NCBI RefSeq assembly: GCF_003001955.1
Contig: NZ_PVNH01000007.1
Span: forward strand, 124,001-188,000
Source: Prauserella shujinwangii
GTDB taxonomy: Bacteria; Actinomycetota; Actinomycetes; Mycobacteriales; Pseudonocardiaceae
DNA: 64,000 nt
Direction: 5' to 3'
The notes beneath the pieces are model-generated. The model saw nothing but the letters and a program-made list of their open reading frames with translations, searched no databases and was not told the origin of the DNA. The position numbers were made by a program, and so were the translations under genes. Positions 3,848 to 49,311 of this stretch are shown here, in pieces (the first letter of the stretch is position 1; each line of letters begins with the position of its first letter).

Positions 3848-4822
3848 ATGAACCTGCCCCTGGACGGCTTCTCCTACTTCCGCTCGGACGAGCCCGCCGA
3901 GACGCAGCGGAAGCTGTCCTGGCTGTTCTGCACGCACCTGTTCGAGCTGCACGGGGACACCGCCAACGTCGACGCGCGGCTCAACGCGGTGCGGCTGGGC
4001 AGGGTGCTGCTGCTCTCGGCGCGCCTGGGCTGCGAGGTGCGGCTGTGCCCGGGGGAGACCCGGCCGTTCTACGTCATCGTCATCCCGCTCGCCGGCCGTG
4101 GCGTCTTCTTCCTCAACGGGGAACGCGCCGAGGTCAATCCGGGGGTGGGTGTCGTCGTGTCGCCGGACGTCTCGCTGGACGTGTTCCTCTCGGCCGACTT
4201 CGCGGCGATCGCACTGCGGATCGAGGAGGGTGCGATCGAGCACGCCGTGGCCGACCGGCTGGGGTTCCTGCCGCCGGTGCCCGTGCGCTTCGACCCGCTG
4301 ATGAACCTGACCGCGGGCCCGGTGGTGGACTGGTGCGACTCCGTTCTCGACTGCGTCGCGGACCTCGACGATCCGGCGAGCCTGCTGCTCGCCTCCGACG
4401 ACCTGCTGCGCCGCATGGACGACTCGCTGGTCGGCACGTTGCTGGCCGCCCAGCCGCACAACTACTCGGGCTTCCTCGGTGACCGGCGCGAACCGCCCGC
4501 ATCCCGGCGCGCCGTGAGTTTCGTGCTCGGGCTGATGCACCACGACCCTCGGCTGTCCCTCGCGGACTACGCGCGCCGCGTGGGCGTCAGCGTCGAGGCG
4601 CTGCACGAGGGTTTCCAGCGCCGGTTCGGCATCGTCGCGTCGGCCTTCCTGCGCCGTGTCCGGCTGCGGCGGGCGCGGGCGCACCTGCTGCTCGTGGCGG
4701 GTGAACCGGCGGCGTCGGCGCGCGAGGTCTTCCTGCACTGGAAGCTTCCCTACGACCCCGGCGCGCTCGCCGAGTACCGTCAGCTCTACGGCGAGTCGCC
4801 GGAGGACACCCTGCGGGGCTGA
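3848..4822 (+). CDS. AraC family transcriptional regulator
   Basis: A 324-residue protein. The N-terminal half (to about residue 200) is a cupin-like AraC-binding domain of the type in activators such as AlkS/OruR: VIVIPLAGRGVFFLNGER, GVGVVVSPDVSLDVF, then LMNLTAGPVV. The C-terminal part from about residue 220 is the DNA-binding domain; the first helix-turn-helix is readable (LSLADYARRVGVSVEALHEGFQRRFG). The second is degenerate (ASAREVFLHWKLPYDPGALAEYRQLYGESPEDTLRG), but the last residues match the GxSPxxYLR end of AraC domains. It lies between the divergent PfkB kinase and a convergent GntR-type gene. A target or ligand cannot be read from the sequence. Confidence 0.8.
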   Translation: MNLPLDGFSYFRSDEPAETQRKLSWLFCTHLFELHGDTANVDARLNAVRLGRVLLLSARLGCEVRLCPGETRPFYVIVIPLAGRGVFFLNGERAEVNPGVGVVVSPDVSLDVFLSADFAAIALRIEEGAIEHAVADRLGFLPPVPVRFDPLMNLTAGPVVDWCDSVLDCVADLDDPASLLLASDDLLRRMDDSLVGTLLAAQPHNYSGFLGDRREPPASRRAVSFVLGLMHHDPRLSLADYARRVGVSVEALHEGFQRRFGIVASAFLRRVRLRRARAHLLLVAGEPAASAREVFLHWKLPYDPGALAEYRQLYGESPEDTLRG

Positions 4823-7954: not shown

Positions 7955-9052
7955 GTGCCAGGACCGAGGGAAGGCCGTGCCGCACCCGCGGGCAGGGCCC
8001 GCACGCTCGCCTGGACGTACCGGCGCTTCGGCGAGGTCGATGCCGCGGGCACGTCGCCGCTGTACGAGCGTGTCGCCGTCGCACTGAGCGAGTCCGGTGC
8101 GGCGCTGCGCGCCCTCGAGGCGGTGCCGGCACGCAGGCGGCACCCCACGGTGATCCTCGCCGCGCTGCACGACCTGGCCCTGGCCGGCCGTGCCCCGGCG
8201 CTCGCCGCGGCGTACGCCGCCGGGGACGGCGCCGCCGCCGCGGGCGCGGCCGTCGACACGCTGGTGCGGATGACCGGGCAGGTCGCGGCGGTCGCCGCGC
8301 GCAGGCGGCCACGGACCGACGAGACCGGACGCTGCTCCGTGCTGTACCCGGCCATCGCCGAGGCGGCACGCCGGGCGGGCGCGCACACGGTCGGACTGAT
8401 CGACGTGGGCCGCTCGGCCGGGCTCAACCTCAACGTCGATCGCGTCGGCATCACCTACGGCGACGGGCGGATGCTGGGCGACCCGGACTCCCCGGTGCGG
8501 ATGTCGTGTTCGCTCGTGGGGGACCTGCCCGTCCCCGCGCAGCCGATGCCTGAGGTCGTCGCCAGGATCGGCGTCGACTCCGATCCGGTCGACGTGACCG
8601 ACGCGGACGACGTCCGGTGGTTGCGTGCCTGCCTGCCGCCGGACCAGCCGGAGCGTGCCGCCAGGCTCGACGCGGAGCTGGCGCTGGCGGCGACGGCCCC
8701 GCCGCTGCTGCTGCGGGGGGACGTTCTCGAGGCGCTGCCCGACGCCGTCGCCCTGGTGCCCGCGGACGCGCTGCCCGTCGTCACCACGACGTGGGCGCTG
8801 TCGCGGTTCCCGCCGGAGAGCCGCCCGCGATTCCTGTGCCGCCTCGGCGAAGCGGCCGCGGACCGGGCGGTGGCGTGGGTGTCGGCGGAGGGAGTCGGTG
8901 TCGCGCCCGCGGTGCCGACACTGGGCGATCGCCGCGCCTCCGGCCACAGCATCCTCGGGCTGGTGCTGCTCGACCGCTCGGCCCTGCGCGCCGAAGCCCT
9001 CGGCCGCTGCTGGTCACGGGGCCGCCTGCTGTCGTGGCTGGCGGACCCCTGA
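7955..9052 (+). CDS. DUF2332 family protein
   Basis: A 365-residue protein starting with GTG at 7955. The DUF2332 pattern covers nearly all of it: SPLYERVAVALSESGAALRA, HPTVILAALHDLAL, TDETGRCSVLYPAIAEAAR, IDVGRSAGLNLNVDRVGITY, DVTDADDVRWLRACLPPDQP, LLLRGDVLEALPDAVALVPA and TTTWALSRFPPESR. The family resembles an S-adenosylmethionine-dependent methyltransferase fold (DVGRSAGLNLN in the place of motif I), but no activity is established. There is no signal peptide. It follows the GNAT-like gene by 60 bp and meets a convergent DUF5753 gene 10 bp past its stop. Confidence 0.85.
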   Translation: MPGPREGRAAPAGRARTLAWTYRRFGEVDAAGTSPLYERVAVALSESGAALRALEAVPARRRHPTVILAALHDLALAGRAPALAAAYAAGDGAAAAGAAVDTLVRMTGQVAAVAARRRPRTDETGRCSVLYPAIAEAARRAGAHTVGLIDVGRSAGLNLNVDRVGITYGDGRMLGDPDSPVRMSCSLVGDLPVPAQPMPEVVARIGVDSDPVDVTDADDVRWLRACLPPDQPERAARLDAELALAATAPPLLLRGDVLEALPDAVALVPADALPVVTTTWALSRFPPESRPRFLCRLGEAAADRAVAWVSAEGVGVAPAVPTLGDRRASGHSILGLVLLDRSALRAEALGRCWSRGRLLSWLADP

Positions 9053-10153: not shown

Positions 10154-11029
10154 TCAGCGACGCCGCCGTTCCGATGCCAGGTGGTCGATGAACTCCCGAG
10201 ACCGTTTCGTGCTCAGCGCCTGTCCCCGCAACCGGTCCGCCCGGTCGCGGAACACGCCGATCTGGCCCGCCTTCTCGAAGAAGGTGCCCTCGACGACCGT
10301 GGCGACATACGCGACGCCGGGGTGACCCTCCAGTTCGGGCGGCATCGCCATCACGGTGAACCCGGCGTCCGTGCTGGCGTGCGCGCCGAGGTCCGTCGGC
10401 AGCACCCGGATGTCCACGTTCGACCGCCTGCCCACGTCCAGCAGGTGCCGCAGCTGCTCCCGCAGCACCGCCGGTCCGCCGACCGGCCTGCGCAGTGCCG
10501 CCTCGTCGATGACGCACCGCAGCACGCAGGGGTCATCGCGGTCCAGCACCTCACGCGTGCGCCCGGCGCGCACCTCGCAGGCGAGCTCGACCCGTTCCTC
10601 GTCGGCCTCGGGTTCGGTGGCGTGGACGATTGCCTCGGCGTAGGCGGGCGTCTGCAGCAGGTCGGGCACCACCTGCGGGGCGTAGGTGAACGTCTCGACG
10701 GCCGAGGTCTCGTAGCCGAGGAACAGCTGGTACCACTCCGGCACGGCACCCTCGGGGAGGGTGTCCCACCACTGCCGCCTGGCCTTCGCGCGCTCGACCA
10801 GCGCCGCGAAGTACCCGGCGCGGTCGCCGTGTCCGTAGTAGCTCAGCAGTACTTCGATCTTGTTGACCGCGGGGAAGTTGCGGCCCGACTCGACGTGGCC
10901 GAGTGCGGCCGGCGACTTCTCCACGCGTTTGGCCGCTTCCGACCGCGAGGGGTTGTGGCTGCTGTTGCGCATGGCGGCGAACTCGGATCCGACCCATCTG
11001 CGCACCACGATGGGACACGCTTCGACCAA
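10154..11029 (-). CDS. Helix-turn-helix regulator with DUF5753 domain (second copy)
   Basis: About 291 residues. I place the start at TTG 11029 because GGAGG lies 8 nt before it; a GTG/ATG-type longer reading to 11071 has no ribosome-binding site. The N-terminal XRE part (VVRRWVGSEFAAMRNSS, EAAKRVEKSPAALGHVESGR) is followed by DUF5753: WYQLFLGYETSAVETFTYAP, QVVPDLLQTPAYAEAIVHAT, CVIDEAALRRPVGGPAVLRE, VDIRVLPTDLGAH and MPPELEGHPGVAYVATVVEG. It is a paralogue of the neighbour at 9063 with the same layout. No DUF397 partner lies next to it. The upstream region carries two GTAGC-n2-GCTAC palindromes that may also serve the divergent gene at 11252. Confidence 0.85.
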   Translation of the reverse strand: MVEACPIVVRRWVGSEFAAMRNSSHNPSRSEAAKRVEKSPAALGHVESGRNFPAVNKIEVLLSYYGHGDRAGYFAALVERAKARRQWWDTLPEGAVPEWYQLFLGYETSAVETFTYAPQVVPDLLQTPAYAEAIVHATEPEADEERVELACEVRAGRTREVLDRDDPCVLRCVIDEAALRRPVGGPAVLREQLRHLLDVGRRSNVDIRVLPTDLGAHASTDAGFTVMAMPPELEGHPGVAYVATVVEGTFFEKAGQIGVFRDRADRLRGQALSTKRSREFIDHLASERRRR

Positions 11030-11251: not shown

Positions 11252-11962
11252 ATGGACAGCAGCAGCGCGCCCGCGGTGCGCCGGGTGGGCGTCGAGCCGT
11301 GGAGCGCGACACTCGACGTGCGCACCGCGGCGCTCGACGTGGACGAAGCGTGTTTCCGGCTGGCGTTGCGGCATCCGTACCACCGCACCGGCGACACGCC
11401 CGTGCTGTATGGCGCCGAGTCGATCGCGCCGTGCACGGGCGAGCTCACCCCGGACGAGCGGTTGCTCCTCGAGCTCGACTATCCCCGTGGGGTGCTGCCG
11501 CACGCGCACGACCGCAGCGCCCACGGCCGGTTCGAGCAGGCACACGTCGCCGACTACGTGCAGGCGCTGTTGCTCGCCCACGAGCGCCTGCTGGATCCAC
11601 CCGACGAGCGGGCGGAGCGGCGGTACGCCGCCCGGCGCGAACTGCGCCCCGAGGTCCGGCTGCGGGTGTGGCAGGCGCGGTACCGCGTGTGGTTCCTCGC
11701 CGGGCGGGACAAGGCCTCGGCGCGGGAGCGCGCCGGAGAGCTGGCCGCGACCATCGTGGACTACGCGGGCCGTCCGTTCGCCCGGATCCACGACGTGCGG
11801 CCCGACCGTGCCGTCCTCCACTGGGACACCGACGTCGCCAGGGCACTGTGGAGGGACCACGAGGAGGGTGACCGGCACGATCGTGCCGGACTGCTGGCGC
11901 GTTCGGCCTGCGAGCTGTGGCGGGCGTTCCTCGTTGCCCGTGTGGCGCCGGTGAGTGCCTAG
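11252..11962 (+). CDS. Hypothetical protein
   Basis: A 236-residue, highly charged, mostly helical protein of unknown function, starting with ATG at 11252. It has no signal peptide or membrane span. There is one histidine/tyrosine-rich stretch near residue 40 (LALRHPYHRTGDTPVLYGAE), then TPDERLLLELDYPRGVLPHA, and helical segments around QARYRVWFLAGRDKASARER. I recognise no family. It is divergent from the second DUF5753 regulator and shares its palindrome-containing upstream region, so it may be a target of that regulator. Its stop codon is 4 bp before the first unit of the 21-bp array. Confidence 0.7.
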   Translation: MDSSSAPAVRRVGVEPWSATLDVRTAALDVDEACFRLALRHPYHRTGDTPVLYGAESIAPCTGELTPDERLLLELDYPRGVLPHAHDRSAHGRFEQAHVADYVQALLLAHERLLDPPDERAERRYAARRELRPEVRLRVWQARYRVWFLAGRDKASARERAGELAATIVDYAGRPFARIHDVRPDRAVLHWDTDVARALWRDHEEGDRHDRAGLLARSACELWRAFLVARVAPVSA

Positions 11963-11966
11963 CACC

Positions 11967-12147
11967 GTGTCCGCCATCCCCGATCACGTGTCCGCCATCC
12001 ACGATCACGTGTCCGCCATCCACGATCACGTGTCCGCCATCTGCGACGGTGCTCACCATGCCCGGTGTCGCCGACCGCGGACACGGGGACACGGACGGCG
12101 GACACGCGCGCACAGTTGGCGGACACGCGTGCACGGACGGCGGACAC
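11967..12147. repeat. Converging array of 21-bp units (GTGTCCGC / GCGGACAC), array 1
   Basis: Four direct units with core GTGTCCGC begin at 11967, 11988, 12009 and 12030. Four inverted units with core GCGGACAC begin at 12077, 12098, 12119 and 12140. Spacing is exactly 21 bp within each half. Start plus end coordinates of each matching pair sum to the same number (24114), so all eight cores would pair in a single long hairpin with regular internal loops. The array starts 4 bp after the stop of the hypothetical gene and lies before a convergent gene. The 21-bp period equals seven codons and also two helical turns. It is not a CRISPR: there are no unique spacers. Confidence 0.85.
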
Positions 12148-12290
12148 GGCGGCGTGGCAACTTGATCCGTTCGCACCCTCGACCCTCGCGGCCCGGTGCC
12201 GTATGCTGAAACATGAAGCTCTTGCAATGAGATTCATGTTCGCGGGCTTGCCGGGCGCCATTGCCCCCTCCTCGGGCGCCACGGCATCGA

Positions 12291-12331
12291 GAGTGCCCCG
12301 GCGCCGGACCCCCAGCGGCGCCGGGGCACTC
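12291..12331. terminator. Strong hairpin between convergent genes
   Basis: GAGTGCCCCGGCGCCG (12291-12306) pairs perfectly with CGGCGCCGGGGCACTC (12316-12331) around a 9-nt loop. It lies 6 bp from the stop of the EAL/GGDEF gene on the minus strand and could act in both directions. Between it and the 21-bp array (12148-12290) I see only an 8-bp inverted repeat, AACATGAA/TTCATGTT at 12210-12240, in a locally AT-richer stretch. Confidence 0.7.
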
Positions 12332-12337
12332 GTCACG

Positions 12338-14098
12338 TCAGCCGGCGGAGCGCCGGTTCCCCGGCGAGGGTGGCTGCCCGCGGAGGATCTCGAGACGGTC
12401 GGATCCCGGCCAGCCGTTGACCCAGCTGGAGCCGGTCACCGCCTTGGCCTCTTTCTTCAACGGCGCCAGCATGCGCGAGATCTCGCGGTAGGACCCCACC
12501 GACGAACCCGCGCACACCAGGGTCGCCAGCGACACCGTCACCGGAACGCCCTCCGCGGACCAGGCGCTCTCCAGCACGCCGTCGGCCAGCTTCGTGATCC
12601 GGTCGATGCCACAGGCGATGAGGAAGTCGTCGCCGCCCACGTGGCTCACCACCACGTCGCCCAGCGTGGCGCTCAGCTCCGTCAGCCTGCGGCCGAGCGC
12701 GCGGATGAGGTCGTCGCCCGCCGCGAACCCCACCGTGTCGTTCACCCGCTTGAACGAGTCGACGTCGAGCCAGCCGACCACCACGGGCTGGCTCGCCGCG
12801 ACCCGGCGATCGACATCCCGGGCGACGGCGTCGCTGCCGGGCAGCCGGGTCAGCGGGTTGAGCGCGGCGGCCTCCTCGATCTTCGCCTCCGCCATGCCGC
12901 GCATGATCTCGTGGACGAACACCACGCCTTCGCAGCGACCGTCCTCGTCCACCACCACGATGTCGTCGCCGGTGCGGTTCCAGTCGGCGTCCGCGACGAG
13001 GTCGAGCAGCTCGATCGCCGCCGCGCCCTTGCGGATCACGTGCGGCGGGTCCGCCAGCCGCGCGGCCGGCCGGTGCGCGTGCAGCGCGTGCCCGAACGGT
13101 CCGGTGACGGCGAGCAGGAACCGTGTCCGGTCGATCGACCACTGTGGACGGTCGTCGAGGTCGACCCCGACGATCCCCGTCGGTGCGTCGTGCGCGGCGA
13201 GCACCGTGCGGACCTCCTCGCACGTCGCCTCGGCGGGCAGGGTGGTCGCCGGCCGCAGGAACGCGTCGATCGACGGCATGGCGGTGGGCGTGAACGACGG
13301 CGGGCCGAGCTGGTTGTCCGGGCTGGCGAGGGTGAGGGTGCCGGTGGCGGTCATGCCCGGCCTGGCGGGTGCGAACAGGTTGCCCTGGACCACGCGGACA
13401 CCGATCCGGCGCACCGTCTCCAGCTGCTCCTCGGTCTCGATGCCGGTGGCCACGAGCCGGGACTGCGTGCGGGCCGTGTAGTGGACCAGCGCTTCGACGA
13501 GAGCGACCGTCGCCAGATCGTCGGGCAGTCTGCGCAGCGCCGTCCGGTCCAGCTTCACGAGGTCCACCCGTGACTCGGCGAGGAGGTTGAGCGGCAGGTC
13601 TCCGGCCCCCAGCCCGTCGAAGGCGAGCCGGAAACCCGCGTCGGCCAGCCGGCGCAACCCGCCGAGCAGCGCACCGGACGGCACGCTGTGGAACGGCGGC
13701 CCGATCTCCAGCACCACCTCACGAGGTCTCCGGTGCGCTGTCGTCAGCGCTTCGTGCAAGGGGGCCAGTGCCTCGGCGGGAGCGGCCGCCGTGAGCGCCG
13801 TGATGTTGAGATGCAGGGGGAGGAGCGTGTCCAGCTCCGCCTCGTCCAGTACCGCGCGCGCGGCGAGCCCCGCGTCGACCTCGACCAGCCTGCCCTGGCG
13901 CAGCGCCGAGCCCAGGAGCTCGCGCACCTCGCCCGACGGTGGCCGGGCCAGCGCCTCCACCGCGACGACACCGCCGGTGTGCAGGCTGTACAGCGGCTGG
14001 AACGCGAAGCGGACCTGGCTCAAGGCGACTCCCACGCCTGCACGGCGAAATGTAGCCTGATACTCACACGACCCGGCGACAGAATCAAGGCTGCTCAA
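12338..14098 (-). CDS. EAL-CBS-GGDEF domain protein (cyclic-di-GMP related)
   Basis: About 560-586 residues without membrane spans. Order: EAL-like domain (residues 25-270; VAVEALARPP, LHLNIT, VVLEIG, VDLVKLDRTAL, ATGIETEEQL, VVQGNLFAPARP), a CBS-pair region (about 275-410; FLLAVTGPFGHALHAHRPAA, GDDIVVVDEDGRCEGVVFVH), then GGDEF (about 420-560; NPLTRLPGSDAVARDV, GWLDVDSFKRVND, SHVGGDDFLIACG). The EAL metal-binding DDFG motif is changed to DGLG and the diguanylate cyclase signature reads GGDDF, so catalytic competence of both domains is uncertain. TTG at 14098 has GGAGG too close; TTG at 14023 with GGGAG 5 nt before it may be the true start. Confidence 0.82.
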   Translation of the reverse strand: MSSLDSVAGSCEYQATFRRAGVGVALSQVRFAFQPLYSLHTGGVVAVEALARPPSGEVRELLGSALRQGRLVEVDAGLAARAVLDEAELDTLLPLHLNITALTAAAPAEALAPLHEALTTAHRRPREVVLEIGPPFHSVPSGALLGGLRRLADAGFRLAFDGLGAGDLPLNLLAESRVDLVKLDRTALRRLPDDLATVALVEALVHYTARTQSRLVATGIETEEQLETVRRIGVRVVQGNLFAPARPGMTATGTLTLASPDNQLGPPSFTPTAMPSIDAFLRPATTLPAEATCEEVRTVLAAHDAPTGIVGVDLDDRPQWSIDRTRFLLAVTGPFGHALHAHRPAARLADPPHVIRKGAAAIELLDLVADADWNRTGDDIVVVDEDGRCEGVVFVHEIMRGMAEAKIEEAAALNPLTRLPGSDAVARDVDRRVAASQPVVVGWLDVDSFKRVNDTVGFAAGDDLIRALGRRLTELSATLGDVVVSHVGGDDFLIACGIDRITKLADGVLESAWSAEGVPVTVSLATLVCAGSSVGSYREISRMLAPLKKEAKAVTGSSWVNGWPGSDRLEILRGQPPSPGNRRSAG

Positions 14099-15823: not shown

Positions 15824-17082
15824 GCGGGGTCTCCCGCCGCCACTTCCTGCGTCTGACCGCGGGGACGGGCGCCGCGGTCGTGCTCTCCAGCGCGACCCCG
15901 GCCGCGCTGGCCGAGGGCGGGCCGCGGGACACGCGGGTGTACGTGCTCGTGGTCGACGGGTGCAGGCCGGACGAGATCGGTCCCGTGCTGACCCCGCACC
16001 TGCACCGCCTCCGGGAGAGTGGCACGAACTTCCCCGCCGCGCGTTCGCTGCCCGTCATGGAGACCATCCCGAACCACGTGATGATGATGTCCGGGCTGCG
16101 CCCGGACCGCTCCGGCGTTCCGGCCAACTCGGTGTACGACCCGGGGGAGGGCGCGGTCCGCACCCTCGACCGGCCGTCCGACCTGCGCGCCGCGACGCTG
16201 CTGGACCGGCTGCGTGCGGCCGGTCACGTGACCGGCAGCGTGCTCAGCAAGGAGTACCTCTACGGCATCTTCGGCGAGCGGGCGAGCGTGCGCTGGGAAC
16301 CGTTCCCCATCGTCCCGGTGAGCGGGCACGCGCCCGACCTGGCCACCACGGACGCGCTGATCGCGATGGTGCACCGCGCCGATCCGGCGCTGGTCTTCGT
16401 CAACCTCGGGGACGTGGACCGGGCCGGGCACACCGATCTCACCGGAACGACACTGCGCGCCGCGCGCACCGCGGCGCTGTGGTCGACGGACCTGCAGGTG
16501 GGCAGGTTCGTGGCGGACCTGAAGCGCACCGGGCGCTGGGCGTCGAGTGTGCTGCTGGTGCTCGCCGATCATGCGATGGACTGGTCGCTGCCGCACCGCG
16601 TGGTGTCGCTCGCGGGTCGCCTGGCGGCGGATCCGGCGCTGACCGGCCGGGTCGTGGTGGCGCAGAACGGTGGCGCGGACCTGCTGACGTTCACCGGTCC
16701 GGAGGCCGAGCGGGCGGCGGCGGTGGCGCGGATGCGGTCGATCGCGGCGGGCACGGAGGGGGTGCTGTCCGTGCACGCGCCCGCGGAGCTGCGACTGGGT
16801 CCCGAGGCGGGGGACCTGGTGGCGTACTGCCGGGCGGGGTGGCGGTTCACCGATCCCGACGTGTGGTCCAACCCCATTCCCGGCAACCACGGCCATCCGG
16901 CCACGGAGCCGATCCCGTTCTTCGTGGCGGGCGGTCATCCGGCCGTGCGGGCGGGAGCCACCTCGTCCGCGCCGGCCCGGACGGTCGACGTCGCGCCGAC
17001 GGTCGGCGCGCTGTTCGGCCTGCCGGAGCCCGCGGGCGGATATGACGGAACCGCCCGCCTCGACGCGCTTGTCGGTGTGTGA
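15820..17082 (+). CDS. Tat-exported alkaline phosphatase superfamily phosphodiesterase
   Basis: A 420-residue protein overlapping phoD by 4 bp. MSGVSRRHFLRLTAGTGAAV is a Tat signal. The core is of the type I phosphodiesterase/nucleotide pyrophosphatase family: VYVLVVDGCRPDEIGPVLTP (first metal aspartate), NFPAARSLPVMETIPNHVMM (nucleophile threonine region), VFVNLGDVDRAGHTD (Asp/His metal ligands), LVLADHAMDW (in place of TSDHG) and GNHGHPATEPIPFFVAG (final His ligand). Coupling with PhoD suggests a pair of extracellular enzymes that release phosphate from diesters. No PhoB/PhoP box was identified. The 21-bp array 2 begins 21 bp past its stop. Confidence 0.83.
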   Translation: MSGVSRRHFLRLTAGTGAAVVLSSATPAALAEGGPRDTRVYVLVVDGCRPDEIGPVLTPHLHRLRESGTNFPAARSLPVMETIPNHVMMMSGLRPDRSGVPANSVYDPGEGAVRTLDRPSDLRAATLLDRLRAAGHVTGSVLSKEYLYGIFGERASVRWEPFPIVPVSGHAPDLATTDALIAMVHRADPALVFVNLGDVDRAGHTDLTGTTLRAARTAALWSTDLQVGRFVADLKRTGRWASSVLLVLADHAMDWSLPHRVVSLAGRLAADPALTGRVVVAQNGGADLLTFTGPEAERAAAVARMRSIAAGTEGVLSVHAPAELRLGPEAGDLVAYCRAGWRFTDPDVWSNPIPGNHGHPATEPIPFFVAGGHPAVRAGATSSAPARTVDVAPTVGALFGLPEPAGGYDGTARLDALVGV

Positions 17083-17103: not shown

Positions 17104-17309
17104 GAGTTCTGCGTTCCGGACGTCGATTTCTGCGTTCGGGGCGCCGAGTGCCGCATTCCGGAACGCGAGTGCCGCGTTCCGGCCGGTGAATTCCGCATTC
17201 GGTCTTCGTGGTGACCGGTACGGCATCCTCCGGGAATGCGGAACTCGCGTTTCCGAACGGGGGACTCGCGGCCTGGAATGCAGAACTCGCGGTTCTGGGC
17301 GGGGGGCTC
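17104..17309. repeat. Converging array of 21-bp units (GAGTTCYGCRTTCCGG type), array 2
   Basis: Five direct units start at 17104, 17125, 17146, 17167 and 17188, with consensus GAGTTCYGCRTTCCGG. Four inverted units (GGAATGCRGAACTC type, two of them degenerate) end at 17246, 17267, 17288 and 17309. Spacing is exactly 21 bp in both halves. Four direct/inverted pairs sum to the same coordinate (34413), so they fit one hairpin register. The unit sequence differs from arrays 1 and 3, but the architecture is the same, again directly after a stop codon. Read as codons, the first half would encode a seven-residue repeat of SAAFRNA type; I treat that as a by-product. Confidence 0.85.
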
Positions 17310-17457
17310 GCGGGGCGCGGCGACGGGGGCCCGGCCAGGCGCTGCGGGGGTGCCGCGGGGCACTGTCGGCGCCGGGATCGCGAGGGTTGCCCGCGAGGCA
17401 CCCGGGGTACCCGGTCGGGCACCGGGGGTGGCTTTTGCCGGGTTTGTTGATCGATGC

Positions 17458-47160: not shown

Positions 47161-49311
47161 TCACCTCCCGATGTCGGACTGCTCGGCGGCCTTGATGATG
47201 CGGCGCTGCTCCTCCTTGGAGAGCACGTCGTCCGCCCTCAGGTCCCTGGTGACCTGCCGGACGTGCCGGACGAACTCCCGGTGGCCGGAGTAGTCGCCGT
47301 TCTCGTCGATCAGGTCGTTGATCGTGCACCCGTTACCCGTGTCCACGTTCGGCACGGTCGTGTCGTGACCGTCGATGACGACCGTGTCGCGGATGTCCGA
47401 GGCCGGGCAGGCGTCCCCTTCCTCGGCCACCACCGTGAACGTCAGCTTCCCGTCCGGAGAGCGATTCCCCTCCTGGTCGACCGCGTGGTAGAGCACCGTG
47501 TGGTCGCCCGGGGTGTTCACCACGAACGGCTCGCCGTAGGCGGTGTACGAGCCGCCGTCGAGGGAGTACCGGAGGAAACGCACCCCGGAGCCGGGGTCGC
47601 TGGCCGAGACGGTGACGGTGGCCATGCCGACGTAGTTCCACTGGTGGTTCTGGGGCCCGACGACCGAGGCCGAGACCTCCGGTGGCGTGGTGTCGCCCGG
47701 GTCCACCTCCACGACGGTGAAGCTCACCGACGCGATCTCGGAGGTGTTGCCCGCCTTGTCCGTGGCGCGGTAGCGCACGGTGTGCTCGCCGGGTTCGGAG
47801 ACGACCACGGGCTCGGTGTAGGGGCCGTACGAACCGTCGTCCACGGAGTACGACACGGTGTCCACACCGGATCCCGCGTCACTCGCGGACAGGGCGACGG
47901 TGGCGGTGCCGACATAGTTGCCGTTGTCGTCCTGGTCGCCGGTGACCTCGGCGGTGACCTCCGGCGGGGTGGTGTCCTCAGGTGCCGGTTCCACGATGGT
48001 GACGATCACGGAGCCGTCCTCGGACGTGTTGCCGGAGTTGTCGGTCGCCCGGTACGTGACCGTGTGGTCCCCGGCGCCTTCCAGCGTGATGGGACCGGTG
48101 TAGGGCTGGAATCCGCCACCGTCCACATCGTACTGAATGACGTTCACACCGGATCCGGCGTCGGTCGCGGACAGGGCGACGGTGGCGGTGCCGATGTAGT
48201 TGCCGTTGTCGTCCTGGTCGCCGGTGACCTCGGCGGTGACCTCCGGCGGGGTGGTGTCCTCGGGGTCCGGCGCCGTGATCGTGAAGGTCGTCGTGCCGGT
48301 CTCGGACGTGTTGCCGGAGTTGTCGGTCGCGCGGTAGGCGACCGTGTGCTCGCCCTCCTCCGTCACCTGCACCGGCTCGGTGTAGGCCTGGAAGCCCGCG
48401 CCGTCCAGGTCGTACTCGACGGTGGCGACACCGGAGCCGGCGTCCTGCGCGTCCAGGTTGACGGTGGCGGAACCGATGTAGTTGCCGTTGTCGTCCTGGT
48501 CGCCCGTGATCTGGGCGGTGACCTCCGGCGGGGTGGTGTCCTCGGACGAGGGTTCCACGACCCGGAACGGCGTGGAACCGGGCTCCGACGTGTTACCGGC
48601 CAGGTCGGTGGCGCGGTACTGCACCGTGTGGTCGCCCGGCTCGTCGACGGTCACCGGGCCGTCGTAGGGCCGGAACCCGGTGTCGTCGATCTCGTACTCG
48701 ATACTGTCCACACCGGAACCCGTGTCCTGGGCGTCCAGAGTGATCGTGGCCGAGCCGATGTAGTCGCCCTCGGCGTTCTGGTCGCCGGTGATCTGGGCGC
48801 TCACCTCGGGCGGGGTGGTGTCCTCGTTGCCGCCGTCCTCGGTGACCGTGAGCACGCCGGCCATCTCGCCGTGCCCGGGGATCGCGCAGTAGTACCGGTA
48901 CTTGCCGGGGGTGAGGTTCACCTGCACCTCGTGCCTGCCGCCGTTCGCGTCGAAGGGGCTCGCGACGATGTTCAGGTTGACGTCGGAGTTGTACTCCGGG
49001 TTCGAGGTGTCGAAGGTGAGCGTGTGGGACATCCCGGTCGTGTTGCCGGTCGCCTCGCTGTTCTCGAAGACGATCGTCGCCGGTCCCGCGGTGGCGGTGG
49101 TGGGAACCGAGGCGTACTCGGTCATGCTGTCGTCCGCGGTCCAGGTCAGCACCTGCTCCTGTGCCGCGGCGGTGGACTGGATTCCCTGCGGGGTCGCCGA
49201 CACCGGGACGAGCCACAGTGCGGCCAGTGCCGCGCTGAGCCCGGTGACCATCAGCGCACGCCCCGATCTCGGGCGGCGGCCCCGGACGGCCGCCAGTAAT
49301 CGCTGGATCAT
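47161..49311 (-). CDS. Secreted cupredoxin with five Ig-like repeats
   Basis: About 716 residues from ATG 49311, with GGAG 7 nt upstream. A signal sequence covers residues 1-40 (LMVTGLSAALAALWLVPVSA). Residues 50-155 are a cupredoxin with copper ligands visible as His96 (MSHTLTF), Cys142, His147 and Met150 (YYCAIPGHGEMAG). Five tandem Ig-like domains of about 94 residues follow, each beginning DTTPPEV and containing GSGV and HTV-x-Y-x-A-x-D. They match the OmpL47/bacterial Ig type. The last 56 residues are the module CTINDLIDENGDYSGHREFV...LSKEEQRRIIKAAEQSDIG shared with the next upstream gene. The protein is likely extracellular and may accept electrons from, or dock with, that enzyme. Confidence 0.85.
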   Translation of the reverse strand: MIQRLLAAVRGRRPRSGRALMVTGLSAALAALWLVPVSATPQGIQSTAAAQEQVLTWTADDSMTEYASVPTTATAGPATIVFENSEATGNTTGMSHTLTFDTSNPEYNSDVNLNIVASPFDANGGRHEVQVNLTPGKYRYYCAIPGHGEMAGVLTVTEDGGNEDTTPPEVSAQITGDQNAEGDYIGSATITLDAQDTGSGVDSIEYEIDDTGFRPYDGPVTVDEPGDHTVQYRATDLAGNTSEPGSTPFRVVEPSSEDTTPPEVTAQITGDQDDNGNYIGSATVNLDAQDAGSGVATVEYDLDGAGFQAYTEPVQVTEEGEHTVAYRATDNSGNTSETGTTTFTITAPDPEDTTPPEVTAEVTGDQDDNGNYIGTATVALSATDAGSGVNVIQYDVDGGGFQPYTGPITLEGAGDHTVTYRATDNSGNTSEDGSVIVTIVEPAPEDTTPPEVTAEVTGDQDDNGNYVGTATVALSASDAGSGVDTVSYSVDDGSYGPYTEPVVVSEPGEHTVRYRATDKAGNTSEIASVSFTVVEVDPGDTTPPEVSASVVGPQNHQWNYVGMATVTVSASDPGSGVRFLRYSLDGGSYTAYGEPFVVNTPGDHTVLYHAVDQEGNRSPDGKLTFTVVAEEGDACPASDIRDTVVIDGHDTTVPNVDTGNGCTINDLIDENGDYSGHREFVRHVRQVTRDLRADDVLSKEEQRRIIKAAEQSDIGR

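Follow-up and report, generated by a model that had tools for sequence, protein, structure and literature searches.

Phased converging 21-bp repeat arrays behind genes in Pseudonocardiaceae as candidate protein docking sites

Introduction

Bacterial transcription is taught as ending by way of RNA hairpins or Rho. The iterons of plasmid origins are direct repeats, each close to two turns of the helix in length, that form the phased sites of one protein, at a single replication origin beside a rep gene. REP elements are palindromes of 20-40 bp with a GT(A/G)G head, in which pairing is kept by compensatory change and which are associated with a RAYT transposase (PMC2817692, PMC3733652). In Beggiatoaceae, more than 100 sets of TAACTGA repeats stand just upstream of start codons and have been proposed as post-transcriptional sites (PMC4679880). 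For Streptomyces, one study reports structured 3' ends without a U-tract, as well as bidirectional ends common to both strands (PMC8269248).

Here we describe arrays of a 21-bp unit, starting from a 64-kb window (the whole stretch of DNA analysed). They share with iterons the phased direct repetition at about two turns of DNA, but stand in converging pairs of arms at gene ends, of which there are dozens to hundreds. REP/BIME elements resemble them in high copy number, intergenic position behind genes, preference for convergent and tandem contexts and clusters of oppositely oriented units, and may also touch stop codons (PMC2817692, PMC3733652); unlike REPs, the array unit is not a palindrome, keeps a strict 21-bp phase, shows no compensatory change and has no associated RAYT. 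A short invariant word and direct repeats near genes are common to the arrays and the TAACTGA repeats, whereas the latter lie on the 5' side of genes and the arrays stand behind stops and converge (PMC4679880). The Streptomyces terminators, too, are structured, U-lacking and bidirectional 3' ends in a GC-rich actinobacterium, but are described there as single stem-loops and are not known to have a repeating unit of 21 bp or to be helically phased (PMC8269248). We found no published description of the arrays in the open-access literature; the best sequence-search matches were unrelated, and no Rfam family covered the arrays.

Results and Discussion

An array of eight phased cores

The array at 11967-12147 has two arms of four units each. 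In the left arm (11966-12037, + strand) the core CGTGTCCGC starts at 11966, 11987, 12008 and 12029, and the three intervening spacers of 13 nt each read CATCCMCGATCAC. The right arm (12077-12148, - strand) carries the opposite core, GCGGACACG, at 12077, 12098, 12119 and 12140. The centre between them spans 39 bp (12038-12076; 47 bp start to start). Exact 8-mers were located at 11967, 11988, 12009 and 12030 on the + strand (GTGTCCGC) and at 12077, 12098, 12119 and 12140 on the - strand (GCGGACAC), giving steps of 21, 21, 21, then 47, then 21, 21, 21 bp, with each pair summing to 24114. A preliminary description of this DNA had listed four GTGTCCGC and four GCGGACAC units with exact 21-bp steps and the same pair sums, and we confirmed all eight in place. 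It had also assigned the cores to one face of the helix, which the exact phasing supports.

Upstream lies a gene of 236 aa (11252-11962, + strand), whose TAG stop (11960-11962) precedes the first core by 4 nt. It matched no Pfam family, in agreement with its earlier designation as hypothetical. Homologues were found in Qaidamihabitans albus (74% identity) and in eight Saccharomonospora genomes, none of them with an array 3' of the gene; for this reason the array looks younger than those at orthologous sites. The gene on the other side (12338-14023, - strand) is convergent and encodes EAL and GGDEF domains.

The array had been described as neither CRISPR, REP nor standard terminator, and this assessment held. 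CRISPR repeats have one orientation and unique, longer spacers, whereas here two arms converge and the 13-nt spacers follow a consensus. The sequence directly 3' of the array is GGCGGCGTGGCAACTTG, with no U-tract after the stem of the kind that a standard intrinsic terminator would have.

A candidate sRNA was identified beyond the array (12200-12335, + strand), with a -10-like CGTATGCT at 12200 and two hairpins with C-rich loops. The second hairpin is a 16-bp inverted repeat (12291-12331) that had been taken for a normal terminator; a hairpin is indeed present there, and it is the 3' hairpin of the conserved candidate sRNA, on the + strand. The same inverted repeat also follows the stop of the convergent EAL-GGDEF gene at a distance of 6 nt. 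The candidate sRNA is kept 3' of the same gene in the eight Saccharomonospora genomes, where it directly follows the stop of the upstream-gene homologue with no array between. Rfam returned no family above threshold for it (best sub-threshold match Scr3202, E 0.67), and it is reminiscent of the 6C-type actinobacterial sRNAs.

Abundance and distribution

Single cores matched 21 times in the 64-kb window, against a shuffle mean of 9.8 and a shuffle maximum of 17. This excess is modest, and it is the phasing that is the non-chance feature. A DNA uptake sequence was considered as well, and no excess of dispersed single copies was seen: outside arrays the window has 8 copies against 9.8 by chance. 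A second array of the same family was found in the window at 63274-63383. It follows a TGA at 2 nt and has a single core in the left arm and four in the right.

The source genome (G000; 6.1 Mb, Pseudonocardiaceae, same genus as Q. albus) was then covered by pattern searches, on which all genome-wide counts given here are based. The two-unit pattern GTGTCCGC-N13-GTGTCCGC occurred in 128 places and the same pattern reversed, as a control, in 0. With at most one mismatch allowed, the three-unit pattern gave 62 exact and 5 one-mismatch places. Among 297 genomes of the family the two-unit pattern was abundant only in the genus itself, in Saccharomonospora (g24; up to 338 places) and in the genera g10 and g28; elsewhere it was at chance level, except for a cluster of two arrays in one g26 genome. 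Converging arrays were found in the named genomes of Saccharomonospora piscinae, Saccharomonospora sp. NB11, 'Amycolatopsis' arida, Q. albus and the MAG DX1.bin91. The remaining matches of that scan were one-stranded repeats whose clusters lacked converging arms.

The search of the genome and its relatives for repeats of 21-bp period, as put forward in the preliminary description, thus showed that the arrays recur, by the dozen in the source genome and in other genera too. The same description had allowed that such repeats might be scarce and out of phase elsewhere, or might stem from the assembly. Neither is the case, because other species, whose genomes were assembled independently, have such arrays too.

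Two large contigs of S. piscinae (G024) start inside arrays, C3 (array at 6-118) and C4 (3-175), so short-read assemblies are probably interrupted at the arrays. A genome of another genus (G145) contains two arrays in locus L230, at 8384-8544 and at about 10859-11010, one of them with diverging arms. This genome is otherwise free of arrays, and the surroundings are rich in oxidoreductase, ferredoxin and Rieske-type genes; the two arrays were possibly acquired by horizontal transfer.

Anatomy and phasing of the unit

The anatomy of the unit was derived from 169 arrays, with units counted at up to two mismatches; the statistics are over related sequences, which are not independent. Same-strand steps of 21 bp were counted 540 times and steps of 19-20 or 22-23 bp not once, while the few steps above 21 bp were mostly multiples of 21 (unit loss). 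The steps are strict although the spacers vary widely, suggesting that indels are selected against. The conserved 21-bp unit was found to be CGTGTCCGC-N3-YY-N2-G, i.e. C-GTGTCCGC-N3-Y-Y-N2-G-N5, with YY at +12/+13 and G at +16. Core positions are 96-99% conserved over 808 units and G16 97% (99-100% in five species, 91% in NB11). The remaining spacer positions follow a species consensus, +19 being C in the source genome, Q. albus and arida, and G in S. piscinae and DX1. A conserved word, a fixed helical phase and the absence of indel steps are what a phased array of the iteron kind would have.

Nearly all two-armed arrays converge; diverging arms were seen rarely (G145 and locus L219). The commonest centre (51/82) has an 18-bp offset that creates a near-palindromic 26-mer. 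In it the G16 of one side falls within the spacer of the other unit, and it is kept in 50/51 cases. Other centre distances were mostly 37-40, 47-48, 58, 67-69 and 79 bp, and those outside the 18+21k class were best fitted by a shared period of about 10.4 bp. The nominal Rayleigh p for this phasing is 1e-7 over arrays, which is too strong because arrays share ancestry; on distinct values only, p = 0.02.

Placement at gene ends

Gene ends were taken from a simple codon-usage gene caller. A stop codon lay within 20 nt in 96 of 131 arrays, with the outer core typically 2-6 nt behind it (mode 4; consensus TGA-CRC-CGTGTCCGC). The contexts of the 131 arrays were convergent in 63 cases, tandem in 60 and divergent in 8. 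Between convergent genes, the sequence not taken up by a two-sided array had a median length of 13 nt, so that there is rarely space for a second terminator. A -10-like box was present between the array and the next start in 26/44 tandem cases against 12 expected, and some arrays in divergent contexts stood directly upstream of -10-like boxes. By their proximity to stops, their convergent and tandem contexts and the -10-like boxes beyond them, the arrays mark predicted transcription-unit borders.

The symmetric layout, the phasing of about 10.5 bp through the centre and the bias to convergent genes (63/131) would also be expected of a topology element, e.g. preferred sites of gyrase or of a nucleoid protein that absorb positive supercoils between convergent genes. 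Known gyrase sequence preferences are much less specific than a nearly invariant 9-mer. Arrays are, moreover, about as frequent in tandem contexts and are also found before promoters, and we consider such an element very improbable.

One-sided arrays amounted to 6/40 in the source genome, where they were sampled by the two-unit pattern. They were common in the named-genome scan, where their share is inflated because that scan took arrays with at least three units in one arm. One-sided arms had a bias (34/48, p = 0.006), while the arms were equal in tandem contexts, which argues against recognition of one RNA strand. A polar barrier with one arm for each direction of transcription was not supported, as the bias was confined to one-sided arms and tandem contexts had equal ones.

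At two loci, conserved in both the source genome and Q. albus, the outermost core abuts a -10-like TAATCT as GCGGACAC-TAATCT (L052, about 4057-4070; L195, about 1529), and a protein bound there could affect the promoter. Some arrays were also found inside genes. Two of these (L049, 3974-4065; L120, 5726-5775) lie within an open reading frame in both the source genome and Q. albus; translated, a 21-bp unit would give a repeat of 7 residues, for example GHGDAD.

At several orthologous sites, arrays were found in two or three genera that differ there in the number of units and in the spacers. This bears on a further alternative, a REP-like repeat spread passively or by a transposase, which settles where it is least harmful and has no host function. 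Sites kept across genera while the spacers diverge, and docking as precise as 2-6 nt behind stops, are hard to reconcile with passive settling, whereas the variable number of units at orthologous sites, the hundreds of two-unit matches per genome, their restriction to a lineage and the species-wide spacer consensus would all fit it. Arrays also sit between convergent and tandem genes as REPs do (PMC3733652). The unit begins GTGT rather than with a GT(A/G)G head, and only the central 26-mer is palindromic. No Y1_Tnp (RAYT) gene was detected in the source genome, Q. albus, arida or G061; S. piscinae has two, without cores in the flanks examined. Transposon ends or MITEs of an rve transposase were rejected likewise, S. 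piscinae having no rve gene and rve loci elsewhere having no cores nearby. Arms 0.5-1 kb apart, taken as a possible mobile element, proved to be separate arrays flanking ordinary genes. Taken together, we regard the REP-like origin as improbable.

RNA pairing

A long stem is possible for the transcript of the array at 11967-12147 (-114.5 kcal/mol, z = -5.5). The preliminary description had pictured a very long regular RNA stem; folding of this kind is possible, while the stem as a conserved feature found no support, with no covariation and unequal arms. The main rival reading builds on this fold. It holds that the arrays are factor-independent RNA hairpin terminators of the I-shaped kind, without a U-tract, that has been proposed for GC-rich bacteria, with stems grown by duplication of 21 nt, the DNA phasing being a by-product of that duplication. 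Converging arms fold strongly, the commonest centre (51/82) is a 26-nt near-perfect palindrome, and the arrays start directly behind stops, as do ordinary hairpins of the source genome (about 1-20 nt from stops). U-lacking and bidirectional transcript ends are described for Streptomyces (PMC8269248).

Covariation was examined in 61 altered core pairs. None was compensated (40 were broken and 21 were wobbles), also in contrast to REPs. Partners would covary if the stem were selected, yet none do, suggesting that selection does not act on pairing. Spacer complementarity in register was 0.595 against 0.617 +/- 0.011 with arms shuffled among arrays of the same species, i.e. there was no excess. 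Arm lengths were often unequal, or one arm was missing, and in the rare diverging arrays the arms point away from each other. The hairpin present in two-armed arrays was lacking in 17/43 one-sided arrays at stops, which had no stem of at least 9 bp in or behind the array. The 9-mer and G16, moreover, are conserved far past the needs of pairing. An ordinary hairpin was commoner behind one-sided arrays (18/43) than behind two-sided ones (10/58), and thus the dyad may also matter as RNA. On balance we hold the hairpin-terminator reading to be rather unlikely.

Phased sites for a DNA-binding protein

The conservation looks like that of protein docking sites marking gene ends and not like that of a simple RNA hairpin. 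A strict 9-mer with an invariant G about one turn on, 21-bp steps and centres that keep the helical face fit the needs of a row of DNA-bound protein, and binding sites as such are strongly suggested by these sequence patterns. The protein, its cooperative stacking and its termination or insulation activity are each what we infer beyond this. Our main reading, to which we give a probability of about 0.5, is that the arrays are phased sites at which a DNA-binding protein would bind cooperatively and form a two-way transcription boundary at gene ends. It draws on the strict steps, the conservation of core and G16, the centre period of about 10.4 bp, the absent covariation, the docking 2-6 nt behind stops and the sites conserved across genera with changed spacers. 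The strong RNA fold of two-armed arrays counts against it, as does the helical phasing of distinct centres, at only p = 0.02.

In the proposed mechanism, each 21-bp unit (CGTGTCCGC, YY at +12/+13 and G at +16) would be contacted by a single protomer in two neighbouring turns on one face, and neighbouring protomers would stack at every two turns. Where two converging stacks meet, the centre would hold them to the same face of the helix. The bound row would act as a two-way boundary, with RNA polymerase halted by a protein roadblock or a terminator, and would shield the next transcription unit, which at 11967-12147 would be the candidate sRNA. As some arrays stand upstream of promoters or inside genes, the role of the protein may exceed termination.

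A second array family

At about 17104-17310 the window has another array of converging arms and 21-bp steps, built on the core GAGTKCYGCRTTC and lying some 20 nt behind a stop at 17082. Further arrays of this second family were seen at other loci of the source genome (L252-L256, C1:110425, C13, C16). By exact pattern the family was absent from Q. albus, and exact TGCGGCATT as its core had no match in the genus. The pattern GAGTGCCGC matched only in the source genome and at one place in G129, so far as these patterns go making the family apparently specific to the source species. Aligned by eye without gaps, the consensus units of the two families match at 14/21 positions; should the families be related, the core of the class would be open to change.

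We tentatively extend the main reading, with more doubt than confidence, to genome-wide protein-dependent gene ends: a lineage-specific DNA-binding protein, stacked on phased converging arrays behind stop codons, may stop RNA polymerase from both sides and so stand in for RNA hairpins as terminators of dozens to hundreds of genes, and the second family (GAGTKCYGCRTTC) may have its own reader. If true, gene ends set by a DNA-bound protein would be an added route beside hairpins and Rho, and would explain how tightly packed convergent genes are kept apart in these GC-rich actinobacteria. The arrays are abundant, easily recognised and present in cultivable strains, which makes the idea directly testable.

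One further repeat was noted in the window at 47862-48825, where a unit of 282 bp recurs in tandem about 3.4 times (79% matches), possibly encoding a repeated protein domain.
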